Origin: Acidobacteriota bacterium
GTDB lineage: Bacteria; Acidobacteriota; Aminicenantia; Aminicenantales; Saccharicenantaceae
Length of the DNA stretch: 64,000 nt
Direction of reading: 5' to 3'
Assembly: GCA_028749115.1 (NCBI GenBank)
Contig: JAQURD010000009.1
Span: 1-64,000, forward strand
Shown here: positions 17,447 through 51,923 of the stretch, piece by piece
Layout of the letters: every line of letters starts with the position of its first letter
Position numbering within the stretch: position 1 is the first letter of the stretch
Notes under the pieces: model-generated
What the model was told of the DNA's origin: nothing
What the model saw: only the letters and a program-made list of their open reading frames with translations
Databases searched by the model: none
Translations under genes and position numbers: made by a program

Positions 17447-17454
17447 AATCAAGT

Positions 17455-17544
17455 AACGTCAGGGGTGCTAGCGGCACTAAAGGCCGGGGCTGAGAATACA
17501 CCCTTTGAACCTGAACCAGGTAATGCTGGCGCAGGGAGACAGTT
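17455..17544 (+). promoter_or_regulatory. TPP riboswitch (THI-box aptamer)
   Basis: The thi-box core is unmistakable: GGGGTGC at 17462-17468, CTGAGAATACACCC from 17490, AACCTGAACCAGGTAATGC in the middle, and GCGCAGGGA near 17530-17538. The closing P1 helix can be drawn as AACGTC (17455-17460) with GACAGTT (17538-17544, one bulged A). It binds thiamine pyrophosphate and controls the thiM-thiE-thiL genes directly downstream. Confidence 0.96.
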
Positions 17545-17559
17545 TCAGCGGCAAAAAAC

Positions 17560-17597: not shown

Positions 17598-17604
17598 AAT
17601 GGTT

Positions 17605-30226: not shown

Positions 30227-31312
30227 TTAGAGGTAGGGCTGCCAGTCTGCTTTTTTGAATTTTCTGGTCTCCTGAGAAACAGAAGTCAAGAGAATAACTG
30301 AGGCTTCTTCTGCCGATCTCGAGTGGCTGTACCTGATAGTCAGGAGGGCTGCCTTTTTGACCAGCAGAAGGTCCAAAACCTCGTTGCCACTGAGGCTATT
30401 TCCCGCCGGCTGGCCAGTGGCAGCCGGGCAGAGATGGCCCATAGCCAGAGGCCCCAGGTCCTTGAACCTGATAGCAGTTAAAGGGCCTTTGCGGTCAGCC
30501 ATAGTCAGAAGAAGGTCAGAGGCCAGAACTTTTTTCTCCAATCTTTCATTTTCTTCCTGGTTGCGGCCGACAACAATAAGCCCATCATTTTCAAAAAAGC
30601 TACGGCCAGTCTTTATAAGTTCAATATCTTCTGCCAGCCACCGGCCTCGCCAGTGCTGCAGTTGTTTTAACTTCTGTGTAAAACCAGGATCAGTCAGCAG
30701 GCAGCCGCCAGAGGGTGTGGGGTAATTGTTCAGGCCATAATAGCCAGCCAGTTCTATCTGCCGCTGGCGAGTTCGGCCTGAAAGATCAAGCAGCTTTTCA
30801 CGTTTGACCAGGCCCAGCTCTTCTGGTCTGGTCGAAGGCAGAAGGCGAGCGGAGAGGGGCCGGAGAAGCAGCCCTCCTGCCGCCCCCAGTTTTTCTACCA
30901 GCTCCAGGGATTGACGGTTCTGAGACTTCGGCCTTTCACCCAGGACTTCACCGGTAGAGATAAAATCAGCCTGGTAGCGGGACAGAAGCTGGACAGCCAA
31001 CCTGACCATCTGACCATGGCAATCAATGCAGGGATTAAAATGGCGACCATAACCATAACGTGGCTGATCAACAATCTTTATCTCTTCCTCCGTTATATCA
31101 GCGATAATCAAGGGCCAGTTAAGCCTGTCAGCCGCTTCCCTGGCCAGAACCGGCTCAAAGAAGACACTGGCGAAAGTCAAGCCAATAATTTCAACACCCT
31201 GTTCTTCCAGAACCTTACCGGCCAGAAGGCTATCCAGGCCACCTGAGAGAAGCAATAAAGTTCTGGCTCTGGACTTTTTCTCGCCTGGTGCCCTGATTTC
31301 ATTTATATTCAT
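30227..31312 (-). CDS. PP-loop ATPase, ThiI/MnmA-like putative tRNA thiolation enzyme
   Basis: A 361-aa protein opening with the pyrophosphatase loop LLSGGLDSLLAG (near residue 22). The CIDCHGQM and STGEVLGERPKSQ blocks (near residues 97 and 117) match the ThiI/MnmA adenylation domain. It lacks the THUMP domain of ThiI and the C-terminal barrel of MnmA; the end resembles the small C-terminal (NFACT-R-like) domain of stand-alone homologues. Probably adenylates a tRNA uridine before sulfur transfer. Its ATG overlaps the upstream SDR stop by 4 bp. A separate MnmA lies at 48491-50572. Confidence 0.8.
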   Translation of the reverse strand: MNINEIRAPGEKKSRARTLLLLSGGLDSLLAGKVLEEQGVEIIGLTFASVFFEPVLAREAADRLNWPLIIADITEEEIKIVDQPRYGYGRHFNPCIDCHGQMVRLAVQLLSRYQADFISTGEVLGERPKSQNRQSLELVEKLGAAGGLLLRPLSARLLPSTRPEELGLVKREKLLDLSGRTRQRQIELAGYYGLNNYPTPSGGCLLTDPGFTQKLKQLQHWRGRWLAEDIELIKTGRSFFENDGLIVVGRNQEENERLEKKVLASDLLLTMADRKGPLTAIRFKDLGPLAMGHLCPAATGQPAGNSLSGNEVLDLLLVKKAALLTIRYSHSRSAEEASVILLTSVSQETRKFKKADWQPYL

Positions 31313-33013: not shown

Positions 33014-33730
33014 ATGAAGGCTACCAGTTGCTGGATATTGCTGATCCTGGTTCTGTCTGGTGCTTTTTTTTACTCTTCAGGGCTGTTTCTTTGTTCTACA
33101 GCTTCTGTTCCATTCCCGGCTTTTTCTGCCAAGCTTTCTGTTAAACTTTCCTCCTCACCTCAGAGTTCAAGCTACAAATATTATTTTGAACCGGCTAAAG
33201 AACTAGATCTACTATTGAAGATCCTGAAGTTTGAACGTAACTGGAAATCCCGGGCCGGGGAATTTTTCGTCATTGGCATCGTTAACCAGAAATCCGATTC
33301 GCTTTCAGCCCGCCTGGCCTCTGACTGGTTGGCTTTGAACCAGACCTTAAGCCAGCAACAGATCAATATTTATGGCCTGCCCATCTCCATAATTGATCTG
33401 GATGTTGATTCTTTTCCTTTCCCTGCTCTCGAAAAAAAACTCCAGCAGGAATCAGTTAATTTCGTCTATTTCACGGTACTTAATCTTAAGAAAGATCCTG
33501 ACCTGATTAAGAATATCTGCCGTCTCTGCCGGAAAATAAAGATAGGCACCTTCACCGACAACCCGGAATACTTTGAGACCGGTATGGCCCTGTGTTTAAT
33601 GCCGGATAAGGATAAGCCGCAGATCATCATCAATCTGGAGGAGGCTCAAGCTCAGGGATTAAGCTTTTCTTCCCGGCTCCTGCATCTGGTCAAGATAAGG
33701 AACGCTAATGGAACTTCAATCCCCTACTAA
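33014..33730 (+). CDS. YfiR/DUF4154-like periplasmic protein
   Basis: A 238-aa exported protein. An in-frame TTG at 32969 exists, but the Met at 33014 begins directly with the signal sequence (hydrophobic residues 5-24) and is preferred; neither has a clear SD. The body fits the YfiR/DUF4154 pattern: LLLKILKFERNW early, FFVIGIV strand, a middle block ending VNFVYFTVL and a C-terminal segment ending FSSRLLHLVKI. YfiR binds and silences the diguanylate cyclase YfiN from the periplasm. The gene overlaps a membrane diguanylate cyclase by 23 bp, which supports the assignment. Confidence 0.7.
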   Translation: MKATSCWILLILVLSGAFFYSSGLFLCSTASVPFPAFSAKLSVKLSSSPQSSSYKYYFEPAKELDLLLKILKFERNWKSRAGEFFVIGIVNQKSDSLSARLASDWLALNQTLSQQQINIYGLPISIIDLDVDSFPFPALEKKLQQESVNFVYFTVLNLKKDPDLIKNICRLCRKIKIGTFTDNPEYFETGMALCLMPDKDKPQIIINLEEAQAQGLSFSSRLLHLVKIRNANGTSIPY

Positions 33731-36188
33731 ACCACCAGCTGCTTCTGACTCTTTTTCTAATCCTTCTTCCACTTCCCCTTCTAATCTTCTTCCTTCCTAC
33801 CGGCGGAGCCCAATTGTCCTGAAATTCATGTTAATTTCCCTGCCTCTTTTAGTTTTAGCCTGTTTAGCTTTATTGATTCTTGGACCGCGCTTTTACCGGC
33901 TCCATTCTATGGAAAACTTACAGGATAAAGCTGAATCAATAGGCAGAGTAGCTGCTTTCAGTCTGGCTCCAGCCATTATCTTTAATGATACCGATAATAT
34001 CGATGAATTTCTGAAGAGTCTCAGCCAGACACCTGAGGTGGAATATATCTTAGTTTCCGATGAAACTGGCCGGGAGCTTGGCCGCTATCAGCGCCCCGAC
34101 GAGCGAGCAGCCGCTCCGTCCGCTTCTTCCAGCCTTCAAACTGTTTCATCCGCTGTCTCCTCAACTTCATCATCAACTGCTTCGCCACTATCCAGCCTAC
34201 CATCGCCACTTGAGTCAAAACCCTCCGCAACACCTAAAACTGCTCCCCTGCCAGCTATTAATCAAATAAACAAAACAGGTCTGAGCCCTGATGGCCTTTT
34301 CTGGAACTTCTTTACTCCGGTTGAACATCAGGGAGAACTGGTTGGCTATCTGACCGTAGGCTTCTCTCTAAAAACCCTCAATGCCCGCCTGACACGTATA
34401 AACCACCTTTTTCTTATTAGTTCCTTGCTGGTTTTTGCTTTCGGCCTGCTGACCTTTTACTCTTTGAGCCTGCTGGTCACCCGCCCGCTGCGCAAAATGA
34501 CCAGAACGGTTAACCAGATTGCTGCCGGTAATCTTGACCTCAGACTGGATATGACCACCTCTGATGAAGTTGGACAGTTAGCCTCAATTTTTAATGTCGG
34601 ACTTGAAGAACTGCAGAAGACCATGCGTCATCTTGAAGAGGCCAAGCAAACCCTGGAAAAGAAAGTAGAAGAAAGGACGGCCGAGCTAAAACAGCAGGTA
34701 GAAGAAACAGAAGCCATTGCCCGCAAGCTTAGCGAAAGCGAAGAGCTCTTTCGTAACATGGTGGAGTCCCTGGGAGAAGCAGTGATTATAGTTGATAACC
34801 AGGAAAGGTTTACCTTCGCCAATCCTGCTGCCAGAAGAATTTTCAACGATACGGAACAAAAGCTGGAGGGTCAGAGCCTTCAGGAATTTACCACCGCTAA
34901 GGATTTTGAATATCTTCGCCAGCAAACTCTCCGCCGCCAGCAGGGTTATCGCGATACTTATGACCTTGAACTGAATTTCCCTGACAGTAGTAAAAAATCA
35001 GTTATTGTCAATGCGGCTCCCAGGATCAATCCCGATGGACAGATTATTGGCACCCTGGCTGTACTGACCGATATTACTGAGAGAAAAAGACAGGAAAAGG
35101 CCCTGTCTGAAGCGAAGGATGAACTGGAAAAAGCCATTACTGAACTTCAGCAGAGAAATAAAAATACAGTCCAATTAGTTGAAATGGGGGAAGCCATTGG
35201 ACTGGCCAAATCTGAGGAAGAAGCTATAAAGATAGTCATCAACTTTGGCGAAAAACTTTTTCCTAAAGAGACCGGGCTTTTCTATCTCCGGCCAGCAAAA
35301 GAAAATTTCCTGGAACTTATTTCTTCCTGGAATCAGGCGGCTGAAGCCGAGACCATCATTAATCTGGACGATTGCTGGGCCCTCAGGCGGTCTCTTCCCC
35401 ATTTTGTTGACCCTTCAAATAGAGCCTTTCTTTGCCCTCACTTAAAAAATATTATCAAGACACCAGAAAGAAGCGCTTGCCTGCCACTCAGCTCAGCCGG
35501 CGAGACAATTGGCTTACTGGCGCTTTATTGCTGTCTGCCTGACAAATCTGGCCAGACTTCAGCTTTTATGCTGTCCAATCTGGCCGAGTCTGAAGCCAAA
35601 AAGTCTCTCCTTATTGCCTTCTCCCAGAGAGTAGCCACCTCACTGGCCAATATCAGGTTGAGAGAATCGCTCCGGCAGCAGTCAATCCGCGATCCTTTGA
35701 CCGGTCTTTACAACCGGCGTTACCTGGAGGAGACCCTGGAAAGGGAATTCGCCTGGGCCAGAAGAGCGAGTCAGCCGGTTTCTATCATTATGTTTGACAT
35801 TGACCACTTTAAAAAGGTAAATGATCTCTTCGGACATGATGCTGGCGATGTTGCTCTCCAGACTATCGCCGGCCAGCTTCAGAAATCTGTCCGGACTGAA
35901 GATATAGTCTGCCGTTTTGGCGGGGAAGAATTTACCGTGGTCATGCCTGCACTGCCATTAGACAGGGCTCTAAACAGAGCCAATCTAATTCTCGAGTCGG
36001 TCAGAAATCTTGAGCTCTCATCTAAAGGAATGTTCATTCAAAAGATAACCATGTCAGCCGGAGTAGCCTCTTTCCCGCTCCATGGAGAAACACCGGCCAA
36101 TGTTTTACAGTCGGCTGATCTATCACTCCTCAGAGCTAAAAATGAAGGGCGGGATCGGGCTCAGGCCGCCGATAAGCCAGTCAGTTAA
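33708..36188 (+). CDS. Membrane diguanylate cyclase: CHASE8-like sensor, HAMP, PAS, GAF-like, GGDEF
   Basis: An 826-aa inner-membrane enzyme making cyclic di-GMP. TM1 is about residues 37-58, a periplasmic CHASE8-like domain runs from 59 to 232, TM2 234-256, HAMP to about 308. A coiled coil, a PAS domain (about 345-460), a GAF-like region (490-640) and a GGDEF domain (655-820) follow. The active site reads GGEEF, and RTED five residues before it is an inhibitory I-site, so it should be active and product-inhibited. A Ser/Pro/Ala-rich segment (about 131-182) interrupts the sensor domain. It resembles YfiN with added PAS/GAF and follows a YfiR-like gene. Confidence 0.88.
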   Translation: MELQSPTKPPAASDSFSNPSSTSPSNLLPSYRRSPIVLKFMLISLPLLVLACLALLILGPRFYRLHSMENLQDKAESIGRVAAFSLAPAIIFNDTDNIDEFLKSLSQTPEVEYILVSDETGRELGRYQRPDERAAAPSASSSLQTVSSAVSSTSSSTASPLSSLPSPLESKPSATPKTAPLPAINQINKTGLSPDGLFWNFFTPVEHQGELVGYLTVGFSLKTLNARLTRINHLFLISSLLVFAFGLLTFYSLSLLVTRPLRKMTRTVNQIAAGNLDLRLDMTTSDEVGQLASIFNVGLEELQKTMRHLEEAKQTLEKKVEERTAELKQQVEETEAIARKLSESEELFRNMVESLGEAVIIVDNQERFTFANPAARRIFNDTEQKLEGQSLQEFTTAKDFEYLRQQTLRRQQGYRDTYDLELNFPDSSKKSVIVNAAPRINPDGQIIGTLAVLTDITERKRQEKALSEAKDELEKAITELQQRNKNTVQLVEMGEAIGLAKSEEEAIKIVINFGEKLFPKETGLFYLRPAKENFLELISSWNQAAEAETIINLDDCWALRRSLPHFVDPSNRAFLCPHLKNIIKTPERSACLPLSSAGETIGLLALYCCLPDKSGQTSAFMLSNLAESEAKKSLLIAFSQRVATSLANIRLRESLRQQSIRDPLTGLYNRRYLEETLEREFAWARRASQPVSIIMFDIDHFKKVNDLFGHDAGDVALQTIAGQLQKSVRTEDIVCRFGGEEFTVVMPALPLDRALNRANLILESVRNLELSSKGMFIQKITMSAGVASFPLHGETPANVLQSADLSLLRAKNEGRDRAQAADKPVS

Positions 36189-42054: not shown

Positions 42055-42714
42055 TTAATGTATTCTCGGCCTGCCTGGCGGATTTATCTTTATTTTGATG
42101 CCCAGGGTCCATTCCAGACTCTTTATGAACTCACTACTTCCCAACGGTTTCCCGCTTCTGGCGTATTCTCTAAAACGCATTAACTCTTCTTCGCTTTCTT
42201 GTCCGCGCAAAAACCCTGCCCAATCCTTGATGTCCCTGGCTAACGGTATAGCCGAGAGTATCCCGTCATTTTGCCCAAAAACATGAGCTCGGGCACTCGA
42301 CCACCGGTAATCTTCAGCTTTTGCTACCAGCCCGGCTCTGACCGGATTACGCTCGATATATCTAATGCAGTTAAACAGATAGGCCTCATCCATGGGATAA
42401 GAGAGAAAACGGCCCTGCCACAAATAGCCTTTCCAATTATTTTTGGCATTAATCATCCAGGTATATTTTTTATGTGTCTCCCCAATAGCTCGCCTCAGAT
42501 TCTCACCATTTCCGGGCACAGCAATCAGATGAACATGATTATCCATTAGGCAATAGCACCAAATTTTTACCTTTTCTTCATGACAGTAAAAACCCAGAAT
42601 CTTCAAATACAGTCTTTTGTCTTCATCATTAAAGAAAACCCGTTGGTTTCTATTTCCACGTTGAATTACATGATGAGGGACATCTGGAACAACAATCCTG
42701 GCAATTCTTGGCAT
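42055..42714 (-). CDS. REP-associated tyrosine transposase (RAYT, Y1_Tnp)
   Basis: A 219-aa HUH-superfamily transposase related to IS200/IS605 TnpA. The opening PHHVIQRGNRNQRVFF, the HUH motif DNHVHLIAVP (near residue 57) and the YIERNPVRAGLV segment (Tyr near 118) are all RAYT hallmarks. Full length with no frameshift, so it may be active. It is bracketed by two direct copies of a 33-bp repeat (42012-42044, 42796-42828) and one inverted copy (41628-41660). No accessory gene accompanies it. A truncated relative is at 54219-54340. RAYTs act on REP-like palindromes in other bacteria; these repeats are likely its cognate sites. Confidence 0.92.
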   Translation of the reverse strand: MPRIARIVVPDVPHHVIQRGNRNQRVFFNDEDKRLYLKILGFYCHEEKVKIWCYCLMDNHVHLIAVPGNGENLRRAIGETHKKYTWMINAKNNWKGYLWQGRFLSYPMDEAYLFNCIRYIERNPVRAGLVAKAEDYRWSSARAHVFGQNDGILSAIPLARDIKDWAGFLRGQESEEELMRFREYARSGKPLGSSEFIKSLEWTLGIKIKINPPGRPRIH

Positions 42715-48490: not shown

Positions 48491-50572
48491 TTATCTGATA
48501 AAGCCAGCTCCAAGAACCGCCTCCCCTTCGTAGAAGACAGCCACCTGGCCCGGCGTTATCGCTTTATAGGGAGTCAAAAGAACAATTTCAGCCGCCTCCG
48601 GCGTTGAAGGTAGCTTAACAGCTGTCGCCGATAAATCGTCTGATGGCAGACCGGAGCAAGCTGGTGGAGTCTGAACATTATCAGCCCTCTCTCCTCCTGA
48701 CCGGTGAAGCAGAGATGCCGACTTATGAAAAACCGAAGGCTTGGCCGATGAGGCAAGCTCTGGCCTGAGTCGTAGCTCGAGTTCTCTCTTAAGATCTCTC
48801 CCGGCATATTCAGGGTTTTCTATGGCCGGCAGGCCCCGGCTATCCTGGGTTCTAGTTGAGCTGTTGTTCTTAAAGTCATCCTGGCAGCTCATCTGACTAT
48901 CATCCCGACCTTCATTTTGACCTCTACTCCGGCTTTTACTCTGGCTATTTCCCTGACTTCTATCCTGACATTTATCCTGGTTTCTATCCCGATCATTACT
49001 CTCGCACCCATTCAGGTTCTTGCTCAGGCTTTTACCAGGGCTGCTATCCAGACTGCCTTGCCCGCTGTCATCCTGATCTTTAAACTGGCGATTACCTTCT
49101 CCGCTGTTTCCGCTGTTCTTCTGACCGCTATTCTGCTCACTACTGCCATCAGGTATCAGTCGGCACTCAAGTTCAGGCGATCTGTAGCGCACTTTGACCG
49201 TAGCCTCAATTGTCTCGCCGCGGGCGGGAATTCGTCCGACCCAGTTTATCCCATCAATATAAAATCTGCTGGTCAGTAAATCTTTCTCCTCACCGACATA
49301 AACCGTATTAGTCGCCGCCTCAATTTTGATGACATAGAGCCGGCCGCTGCTGGCTAACCCCAGACCGCGGCGCTGGCCGAGGGTGTAGTTCTCTATTCCA
49401 TTGTGAAGACCAAGCGTGTGACCGGAAAGGTCTTTGATCGGGCCTGGCTGGCCCTGGCTGAGCAGCTCACGATAGTTGCCGGCATAGAAATCCTGACTAT
49501 CTTCTTTGTCACTGACCAGTAAATCATGCTTCCTGGCAATTCGCCTGACTTCTGCTTTCGTCAGCTCGCCGAGAGGAAAAATCGAGCGTGCCAGTTGTTC
49601 CTGACTCAGAAAAGAAAGGAAATATGACTGGTCCTTGGTCGGGTCGATGGCTTTAAGCAGCTGCCAGCGGCCTGTACGTTGGTCATATTTGAGCCGGGCA
49701 TAATGGCCCGTGGCAAAGTAATCATATTCAAGACCGAGCTGACGGCAGCCAGCCAGCAACAGACCAAATTTGATTTCAGCATTACACTTAACACACGGAT
49801 TGGGCGTGCGGCCCCGAGCATATTCACGGCGGAAATAATTTAAAATTCGTTCCTCATAGGCCTGGTGAAGATCAACGACATAAAATGGAATGCCGAGATG
49901 ACGAGCGACAGCAGCAGCGGTGTTAATTTCCTGCTCTTCATCATCACCAAAACAGGACAGGCGGCGAAGATGACTTCTGGAGACGCCACGGGGATGGAGG
50001 GAGGTGGCGGAGGTGGTGTCGGAGTCATCAGACACAGCAGCACCAGAGACGGAGAGAGAGAGAGAAGCACCAGGAACCTTTAAGGCTGTGGAAGCACCAT
50101 GGCCGGGAGGAACCGGATGACCACAGGAGATATCGGAGGCGCCTGTTTCTTCAGGTGCTACTGATATTTCCACTTGCCCGGGTAGCCCGGCAGATTCTGA
50201 TTTGGCTTTATGGCTTTCTTCGTACTTCCGTTCAGGCTTCATTTCAGGCTCTGCTTCAGGCTTCACTTCAGGCCCGGTCAAATTAGTTGCCTCAGCTTGC
50301 CTGGCTTCAGTTGAGTTAATAGATTCGGTCAGACAGCCGGAAGCAGCTTTCCTGGATAAGCCACCGGGCCGATTGGTTCTCTGGCTGTGTTCAATCTGGA
50401 GCTCCTCATTGCTCTCTGGGTTTTCCGGTGCGCCCGTTAACCTCTCGGGAGACCCGATCCTCATGGTCACACCAATGACTTCATAGCCAGCTTTTTTTAG
50501 TAGCAGGGCAGCGACAGAGGAATCCACTCCACCGCTCATTCCAACCAGTACTCGTTTTTTCTCTGTCGCCAT
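48491..50572 (-). CDS. mnmA: tRNA 2-thiouridylase MnmA with two large low-complexity insertions
   Basis: Thiolates U34 of tRNA. Core parts are all present: PP-loop GMSGGVDSS (11-19), NPCVKCN with catalytic Cys260, ATGHYAR (287-293), KDQSYFLS and the C-terminal barrel ending VFYEGEAVLGAGFIR. The usual length is about 360 aa, here 693. Insert 1 (about residues 41-205) lies in the loop after the second strand. Insert 2 (about 474-660) splits the final barrel and is rich in Ser, Gln, Asp, Asn and Arg. At the site of the second cysteine (normally SQxICF) it reads SQDFY, so that Cys is lost. The promoter (TGTTATAAT, 50579-50587) lies so close that the mRNA should be leaderless. Confidence 0.85.
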   Translation of the reverse strand: MATEKKRVLVGMSGGVDSSVAALLLKKAGYEVIGVTMRIGSPERLTGAPENPESNEELQIEHSQRTNRPGGLSRKAASGCLTESINSTEARQAEATNLTGPEVKPEAEPEMKPERKYEESHKAKSESAGLPGQVEISVAPEETGASDISCGHPVPPGHGASTALKVPGASLSLSVSGAAVSDDSDTTSATSLHPRGVSRSHLRRLSCFGDDEEQEINTAAAVARHLGIPFYVVDLHQAYEERILNYFRREYARGRTPNPCVKCNAEIKFGLLLAGCRQLGLEYDYFATGHYARLKYDQRTGRWQLLKAIDPTKDQSYFLSFLSQEQLARSIFPLGELTKAEVRRIARKHDLLVSDKEDSQDFYAGNYRELLSQGQPGPIKDLSGHTLGLHNGIENYTLGQRRGLGLASSGRLYVIKIEAATNTVYVGEEKDLLTSRFYIDGINWVGRIPARGETIEATVKVRYRSPELECRLIPDGSSEQNSGQKNSGNSGEGNRQFKDQDDSGQGSLDSSPGKSLSKNLNGCESNDRDRNQDKCQDRSQGNSQSKSRSRGQNEGRDDSQMSCQDDFKNNSSTRTQDSRGLPAIENPEYAGRDLKRELELRLRPELASSAKPSVFHKSASLLHRSGGERADNVQTPPACSGLPSDDLSATAVKLPSTPEAAEIVLLTPYKAITPGQVAVFYEGEAVLGAGFIR

Positions 50573-50587: not shown

Positions 50588-50596
50588 TCTGAACCG

Positions 50597-50636
50597 GTGA
50601 CGTGATACTCTGTCCCGGGACAGAGTATGATGTCAC
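50597..50636. repeat. 40-bp palindrome of the GGGACAGAGTAT subfamily
   Basis: Two 20-bp arms meet without a spacer at CCCGGG (centre 50616/50617), with two mismatches. It overlaps the TauE/SafE stop codon at 50633 and the mnmA promoter region. The arms match those of the element at 51683-51923. Confidence 0.85.
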
Positions 50637-51643
50637 AGGAGGAAACGCAGGGCCACAAAAATGAGGAACAGACCATAAAGAACCTTAACCAGCTCGCCCG
50701 AGATTCTGATATTTAAGCGTGCGCCAACCACCGTCCCAGCTACCAGCCCGATAGCCAGCAGGCCTGCTACTCGAAGGTCAAGTGTTCCAGCTTTATAATA
50801 ATATATGACTCCTGGCAGGCCGACAGGCGCCAGCAGTGCTCCAAGTGACGTAGCAATAGCTCTCTTCACCGGATAACGCAGGAATAAAATAAGGAAGGGC
50901 ACAATAACATTGCCTCCGCCAATGCCAAACATCCCTGACATCACCCCGGCTATAAGTCCAACTCCGACAAGCGCCAGAAAATGAGGCTTAAGACAGGGTG
51001 GTTCAGAAGCAATCGCCGCGGCAGCAGCAGAAGCGCCAGCTGAACCATCTGAACCACCGCTCCCGCCAGCCCTCACAGTCACCTCGCTGGTAGCTTTAAC
51101 CGCCGCCTGAGCCCCATCACCATTAGCCACCGAGGCCACCAATAAAGCCTCGCTCAGGCCCGGCGAAACTTCCGAAGCCTTTGACTCATCAGCCACTTTC
51201 CCTCTCACAGAAGCAGAGATAGCTGAAGCTTCCTCGGCCTTTTGCTGTCCTCTCTTTTTCTGACCAAAATACTTTCTAAATTTATTCACTGGTTTAACAA
51301 ATGTCCAGCTGACATAAAGGCAGAAAAGCGCATAGAGTTTCTGGACAATAGTGGCTGGGAGAGCATGCGCCAGCCAGGCTCCTACCATCACCGACATGGC
51401 CAGACCGACAGCGATTAAAATTGACCCGCGAATATCAATTAGTTTAGCTCGGTAATAAGCTATGACGCCAAAGATCCCCACCGGCAGCAAAATAGCCGCC
51501 AGTGAAGTCCCCGTGGCTTTAATCAACGGGAAATTAGCCAGCATGACCATGGCCGGAACCATAACAATTCCGCCACCGATACCAAACAACCCGGAAAAAA
51601 TTCCGGCCAGAATGCCGATGCTTATAATCAGAATAGAATTCAT
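50633..51643 (-). CDS. TauE/SafE-family membrane permease with central low-complexity insert
   Basis: A 336-aa inner-membrane protein, probably exporting sulfite or an organosulfonate-type anion. Two homologous halves each carry the family motif GLFGIGGG/GMFGIGGG (19-25 and 238-244), with about four helices per half. The halves are joined by an unusually long cytoplasmic linker (about 128-217) rich in Ala, Ser, Gly, Glu. TATAAT (minus strand, 51656-51651) stands 7 nt before the ATG, so the mRNA is probably leaderless. The stop falls in a 40-bp palindrome. Confidence 0.87.
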   Translation of the reverse strand: MNSILIISIGILAGIFSGLFGIGGGIVMVPAMVMLANFPLIKATGTSLAAILLPVGIFGVIAYYRAKLIDIRGSILIAVGLAMSVMVGAWLAHALPATIVQKLYALFCLYVSWTFVKPVNKFRKYFGQKKRGQQKAEEASAISASVRGKVADESKASEVSPGLSEALLVASVANGDGAQAAVKATSEVTVRAGGSGGSDGSAGASAAAAAIASEPPCLKPHFLALVGVGLIAGVMSGMFGIGGGNVIVPFLILFLRYPVKRAIATSLGALLAPVGLPGVIYYYKAGTLDLRVAGLLAIGLVAGTVVGARLNIRISGELVKVLYGLFLIFVALRFLL

Positions 51644-51656: not shown

Positions 51657-51682
51657 CTAAATAAACCGGTGATAAATAAAAC

Positions 51683-51923
51683 GGTGACGTGATACTCTGT
51701 CCCTATTTTAGACGTTGACCACTACCACGTTACCATGATGGGATGTCAATCATGCTACGCGTTATGCTATGCGTCATGCTACGTTATGATCAGGCGAAGT
51801 AACACTCGTAGCAACACTCTGTCGCCTTTCTACTCGCAATTACGCAATTATACAACCACACCATTATCTATGCTAATGACAGATAAATTAACTTTTTAAA
51901 AAGGGACAGAGTATCACGTCACC
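51683..51923. repeat. IR-bounded element of the GGGACAGAGTAT subfamily
   Basis: A perfect 21-bp inverted repeat: arms at 51683-51703 (starting GGTGACGTGATACTC) and 51903-51923. The 199-bp interior has no gene; it contains imperfect repeats (ATGCTACG, ATGCTATGCG, ATGCTACG near 51753-51785). The right arm abuts the stop codon (TAG) of the dehydrogenase gene. Confidence 0.85.

Follow-up and report, generated by a model that had tools for sequence, protein, structure and literature searches.

An MnmA branch without the third catalytic cysteine, and two long loop inserts in the MnmA of a Candidatus Saccharicenans genome

The sulfur chemistry of MnmA is disputed, one model placing a persulfide on Cys199 and the other an Fe–S cluster on Asp99, Cys102 and Cys199 (PMC11784392). 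Our literature searches returned only a division of the family into D-type and C-type enzymes; a third class could have been mentioned in the paper from which this division stems (Shigi et al. 2020). The D-type (C-DxxC-C) is represented by the enzymes of E. coli and S. pneumoniae (structures 2der, 2deu and 2hma). MnmA of Thermus thermophilus belongs to the C-type (CC-CxxC-C) and holds a [4Fe-4S] cluster (PMC8584467, PMC11784392), the CxxC pair of such enzymes being part of the cluster site (PMC8584467). Within the C-type, the proteins of Campylobacter and Helicobacter are devoid of the loop CC region (PMC11784392). A greatly lengthened member is the apicoplast MnmA of Plasmodium falciparum, which has 1084 residues, with the MnmA-like fold at 422–1084 (PMC10219651).

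The window analysed here is a stretch of 64,000 nucleotides from a genome of Candidatus Saccharicenans, Aminicenantes (the window genus, labelled g1 in our comparisons, with g4 for the sister genus and f1 for the family). Its mnmA gene (48491–50572, reverse strand) encodes a tRNA 2-thiouridine(34) synthase of 693 residues in a single stop-free frame, interrupted by two in-frame inserts that bring the enzyme to almost twice its usual length, as the preliminary description of the locus had claimed. That description had also regarded the MnmA core as complete, and this holds: phmmer against MnmA structures in the PDB (E=1.4e-66) recovers three collinear blocks, aa 4–38, 217–470 and 658–692, Pfam domains PF03054, PF20259 and PF20258 are matched, and the scores for the NCBIfam equivalog NF001138 (357.2 bits, cut-off 284) and for TIGR00420 (306.1 bits, cut-off 236.95) exceed the thresholds. 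The core comprises an N-terminal part (aa 1–41; 50450–50572, reverse strand) with the PP-loop SGGVDSS, a middle part (aa 203–475; 49148–49966, reverse strand) with TPNPCVKCN and KDQSYF, for which dN/dS is far below 1, and the remainder of the C-terminal barrel (aa 656–693; 48494–48607, reverse strand; PF20258 at aa 656–692). In an AlphaFold2 model built with an alignment of 29 orthologues, pLDDT is above 90 over most of the core. The model presents the three-domain MnmA fold and, the inserts notwithstanding, Foldseek matches it to the E. coli and S. pneumoniae structures 2hma, 2der, 2det and 2deu with TMt 0.82–0.86, so that the structural prediction suggested earlier bears out a core folded around the inserts. 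Accordingly, the protein is an MnmA by descent and by profile, albeit one without the textbook mechanism. Judging from its sequence, it is probably a working enzyme of the Fe–S or the persulfide type, and it would thiolate U34 of the tRNAs for Lys, Glu and Gln while displaying two mutually independent peculiarities.

The first of these concerns the cysteines. The third catalytic or cluster cysteine, equivalent to E. coli Cys199, is absent from the window MnmA, where SQDFY (aa 359–363; 49484–49498, reverse strand) replaces SQE[I/V]CF; the loss of a catalytic cysteine at this site had been recognized from the start. It had also been proposed that C260 is the catalytic cysteine that stays. One cysteine is indeed retained, but it is C263 that corresponds to E. 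coli Cys102, while C260 occupies the Asp99 position. The window MnmA thus shares with the D-type its fold and core and the cysteine at position 102, and departs from it in having a cysteine for Asp99 and none for Cys199. With the C-type of T. thermophilus it has in common the PP-loop ATPase fold, the active-site CxxC (CVKC, at the Asp99/Cys102 position), a loop cysteine, tRNA-binding residues and the C-terminal barrel. In contrast with that enzyme, it has SQDFY for SQExCF, a single loop cysteine for CC, and two long inserts. The suggestion that an alternative sulfur route might run through an Fe–S cluster at CVKC stands in so far as the pair matches the [4Fe-4S] site of C-type MnmAs (PMC8584467); a cluster may be assembled here as it is in them.

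All g1 MnmAs and almost all of those from g4 have SQDFY, irrespective of inserts, whereas other Aminicenantales and other members of the phylum carry the canonical SQExCF-type motif. Inserts and cysteine loss are therefore unrelated, contrary to the tie between them that the preliminary description implied. It had named sister orthologues lacking both inserts and bearing a normal SQxICF as evidence against its account; insert-free sisters do exist, but they too read SQDFY. Nor is the loss peculiar to the window protein, since it marks a branch of 100 members spread over many phyla. In a tree of 157 MnmA sequences, a single branch with support 0.995 separates 100 SQDF-type proteins from 57 with the third cysteine, the latter drawn mostly from one phylum. 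The species genomes were scanned with the patterns TPNPCV[RK]C and FATGHYAR, and hence for CxxC-bearing proteins as opposed to the D-type. Eight proteins unclassified by the initial pattern all proved to have the third cysteine (SHEICF, SQQLCF, SYELCF). The SQDF proteins are thus a monophyletic branch of C-type MnmA that lost the third catalytic or cluster cysteine, with the signature VGMSGG ... C[YFL][GS] ... CxxC ... SQ[DN]F. According to the labels of the metagenome bins, the scan met this type in Spirochaetes, Dehalococcoidia, Elusimicrobia, Lentisphaerae/Kiritimatiellae, Desulfobacterales, rumen Alphaproteobacteria, Gastranaerophilales, Bacteroidales and others. Given the monophyly of the branch, its spread over phyla and the canonical motif in other members of the phylum, the family of the window genome probably took up its SQDF-type MnmA by horizontal transfer. 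The branch is widespread and apparently unremarked in the literature that we searched.

What might compensate for the missing thiol? The only cysteines invariant among the 100 SQDF-type proteins are C207, C260 and C263, that is, the loop cysteine and the CxxC pair; for L052–L130 the invariance of CxxC and of FATGHYAR arises partly by construction, while the loop cysteine was no search pattern. C207 (49952–49954, reverse strand; S-C-F-G) is hence a candidate substitute. The residue that follows SQDF varies (Y in 73 proteins, I in 16, L in 5, V in 3, others in the remainder), and no fixed ligand is therefore possible at that site. A loop cysteine occurs in 100/100 SQDF-type proteins versus 50/57 of those with the third cysteine (Fisher P=6e-4), the seven exceptions amounting to about four independent losses by parsimony. 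The tree has a total length of 72.01, of which 44.54 falls to the SQDF subtree and 27.47 to the third-Cys part; a rough rate test resting on these ~4 losses, a small number, predicts ~6.5 losses of the loop cysteine on the SQDF subtree, against none seen (P(0)~0.0015). A simple interpretation of this pattern is that an MnmA cannot dispense with both, and that the loop cysteine would stand in for the third. On sequence grounds, the missing thiol would come from C207, which would be the third [4Fe-4S] ligand together with C260 and C263 or, alternatively, carry a persulfide to U34-AMP. We advance only tentatively, with the chances somewhat against us, the broader proposal of a third widespread MnmA class in which the role of Cys199, be it that of cluster ligand or of sulfur carrier, has passed to a cysteine of the flexible beta-2 loop. 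The SQDF proteins form one clade, and their cysteine pattern may go back to a single ancestral event and have been kept for another reason. The loop with the invariant cysteine is modelled at pLDDT below 50, also in an insert-free model. A special sulfur donor encoded nearby gave no clear signal, a cysteine desulfurase gene being adjacent at 1/75 SQDF-branch loci.

The loop cysteine might instead be no ligand at all, the CxxC pair performing the chemistry alone, with a persulfide on one cysteine and the other resolving it, and the loop cysteine being structural or contacting tRNA or the sulfur donor. The invariance of CxxC in the branch fits this alternative, as does the presence of the loop cysteine in 50/57 third-Cys proteins, where it must have some older role; however, it is absolutely invariant only where the third cysteine is missing and was lost about four times elsewhere, and we regard the alternative as rather unlikely. 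Returning to C207 as third thiol, the SQDF branch resembles the Campylobacter and Helicobacter enzymes in being a C-type minus one cysteine group, and yet it is their mirror image: those have lost the CC loop, whereas the SQDF branch keeps a loop cysteine and loses the third. To a branch without Cys199 the textbook persulfide step as written is unavailable, and its enzymes could separate the Fe–S model of MnmA from the persulfide model. If the cluster were indeed held by CxxC and the loop cysteine, a ligand would have been swapped inside one enzyme family, providing a natural test of the disputed mechanism. This branch-wide rearrangement of cysteines is the part of our observations that more deserves experiment than the inserts do.

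A protein lacking the third catalytic cysteine could also be a decaying or non-thiolating MnmA relative, and five members of the genus (G008, G012, G013, G014 and G017) have no MnmA match at all. Against this, strong purifying selection acts on the core, the residues of the PP-loop, the GHYAR region, KDQSYF and CxxC are invariant or nearly so over the 100 SQDF-type proteins, and the genome encodes no other full MnmA; decay is accordingly very improbable. The missing matches in the five genomes may reflect assembly gaps or real loss, some of the loci inspected in them lying at contig ends. Loss of the whole s2U/C5 pathway was rejected for these genomes, all of which still encode MnmG, the partner in C5 modification; the window genome encodes it as well. 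It had further been proposed that a second PP-loop enzyme (30227–31312) shares the work of MnmA. This protein has a CxxC of its own (NPCIDCHGQ), a later GGC, a weak NFACT-R_2 match and a C-terminal part of variable length. It is present in 17/18 genus relatives, but it is missing from all g4 genomes, which bear SQDFY, and occurs beside canonical MnmA in f6 genomes. Since its distribution does not track SQDFY, general compensation by this protein was rejected.

The second peculiarity is the pair of inserts. Insert 1 (aa 42–202; 49967–50449, reverse strand) is hydrophilic and S/E/A/P/G-rich and lies in the loop after beta-2, while insert 2 (aa 476–655; 48608–49147, reverse strand), rich in S/G/D/N/Q/R, occupies a hairpin of the C-terminal barrel. 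Their hydrophobic fractions are 0.17 and 0.15, compared with 0.35 for the core, and in 569 ORFs from 705 kb of the genome no other hydrophobic-poor segment reaches the length of either. Both are predicted to be disordered, with pLDDT below 50 for aa 46–201 and most of 482–652, and this suggests that they would be disordered in solution too. The label ‘low-complexity’ given to them earlier fits loosely: each insert does hold short repeats with a period of 12 nt, which cover little of its length and hint at slippage, but the sequence entropy is 3.8 bits versus 4.07 for the core.

Comparison with orthologues, which the preliminary description had advised, revealed that close relatives are expanded at the same two sites. 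The inserts are limited to Ca. Saccharicenans, in which the 14 members with an MnmA match (the window genome counted) share these two loop sites with very different lengths, from none to ~200 aa (12–166 at site 1 and 23–204 at site 2 when measured by pattern). The g4 proteins examined are all in the short state (12 aa at site 1 and 23 aa at site 2 by pattern), and site 1 is likewise 12 aa in insert-free orthologues. MnmA has 693 aa in the window and 416 aa in the nearest relative, G018, while syntenic genes are mostly of equal length. In a tree computed from the core alone, the insert-free L014 is basal and sister to the remaining g1 proteins, and the outgroup is likewise without both inserts. 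The clade L001/L002/L013/L003/L008/L010/L011 (bootstrap 87) accounts for the one gain at site 1; site 2 lengthens in steps, the window species being the longest at both. Thus, the barrel loop lengthened early within Ca. Saccharicenans and the beta-2 loop once, in one subclade, and in the model the core folds around both enlarged loops. In the comparison with the nearest relative (L001 and L002), dN is 0.10 and dS 1.4 for the core, as against dN 0.5 and dS 1–1.9 for the inserts, values of dS this high being approximate; in most comparisons the dN of the inserts is ~0.3–1 times dS. In our view the inserts arose where loops under weak constraint tolerated growth in frame, and they are close to neutral filler as far as their sequences indicate.

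An assembly or sequencing artefact might be suspected in a draft metagenome-type genome of 41 contigs. It is hardly credible here: the mnmA frame contains no frameshifts or stops, insert boundaries are conserved, the insert sequences are absent elsewhere in the genome, and several independent genomes show expansion at the homologous sites, which excludes an assembly error. A specific function of the inserts, such as condensate formation, binding of a partner or RNA, or heat or redox tuning, would agree with the long persistence of hydrophilic, in-frame sequence at both fixed sites, and with the inserts being the most extreme of the genome sampled. Nevertheless, insert sequence and length change quickly, dN nears dS in several pairs and insert-free relatives have the same core, all of which makes such a function improbable. 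We consider it fairly probable that the window protein is a functional MnmA that combines near-neutral loop growth with C207 as third thiol. P. falciparum MnmA is likewise greatly lengthened and still functional; unlike the window MnmA, it is of the D-type, its catalytic cysteines are conserved and a 421-aa N-terminal extension makes up much of the additional length. The inserts of the window MnmA take an ordinary phenomenon to an extreme, and are a clean bacterial example of how far the loops of a conserved enzyme can grow under weak constraint.

Rickettsia palindromic elements, which are repeated mobile palindromes, sit within genes as in-frame extra peptide of conserved enzymes. The MnmA inserts differ from them in being long and single copy in the genome, with only short internal 12-nt repeats, and their origin as mobile or repeated elements was discarded. 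A genome-wide tendency to insertion found no local support either, most window genes having the length of their G018 counterparts, with the exception of the TauE-like neighbour. This TauE/SafE-type permease gene (50633–51643), beside mnmA, has a hydrophilic insert of ~80 aa; orthologous open frames range from 271 to 404 aa, and most of the genus is insert-free. A sensor diguanylate cyclase (33708–36188) has a ~50-aa S/P-rich segment in its sensor domain that is shorter or absent in relatives. Copies of a REP-like palindrome (50594–50639, 51682–51703 and 51903–51923) flank the TauE-like gene, and in G018 and G003 a relative of a transposase-like gene (42055–42714 in the window) lies between mnmA and tauE. 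The segment 51901–54151 (~2.25 kb), which holds a UDP-glucose/GDP-mannose dehydrogenase gene as well as 911 nt in which no gene is convincing, has no match in G003 or G010 and is 93–97% identical to G018, neighbouring genes being ~70–80% identical in protein; this suggests that the segment was exchanged recently or contains a non-coding element under strong conservation. Finally, a TPP riboswitch (17451–17554; Rfam RF00059, 61.5 bits) lies upstream of the gene at 17599.
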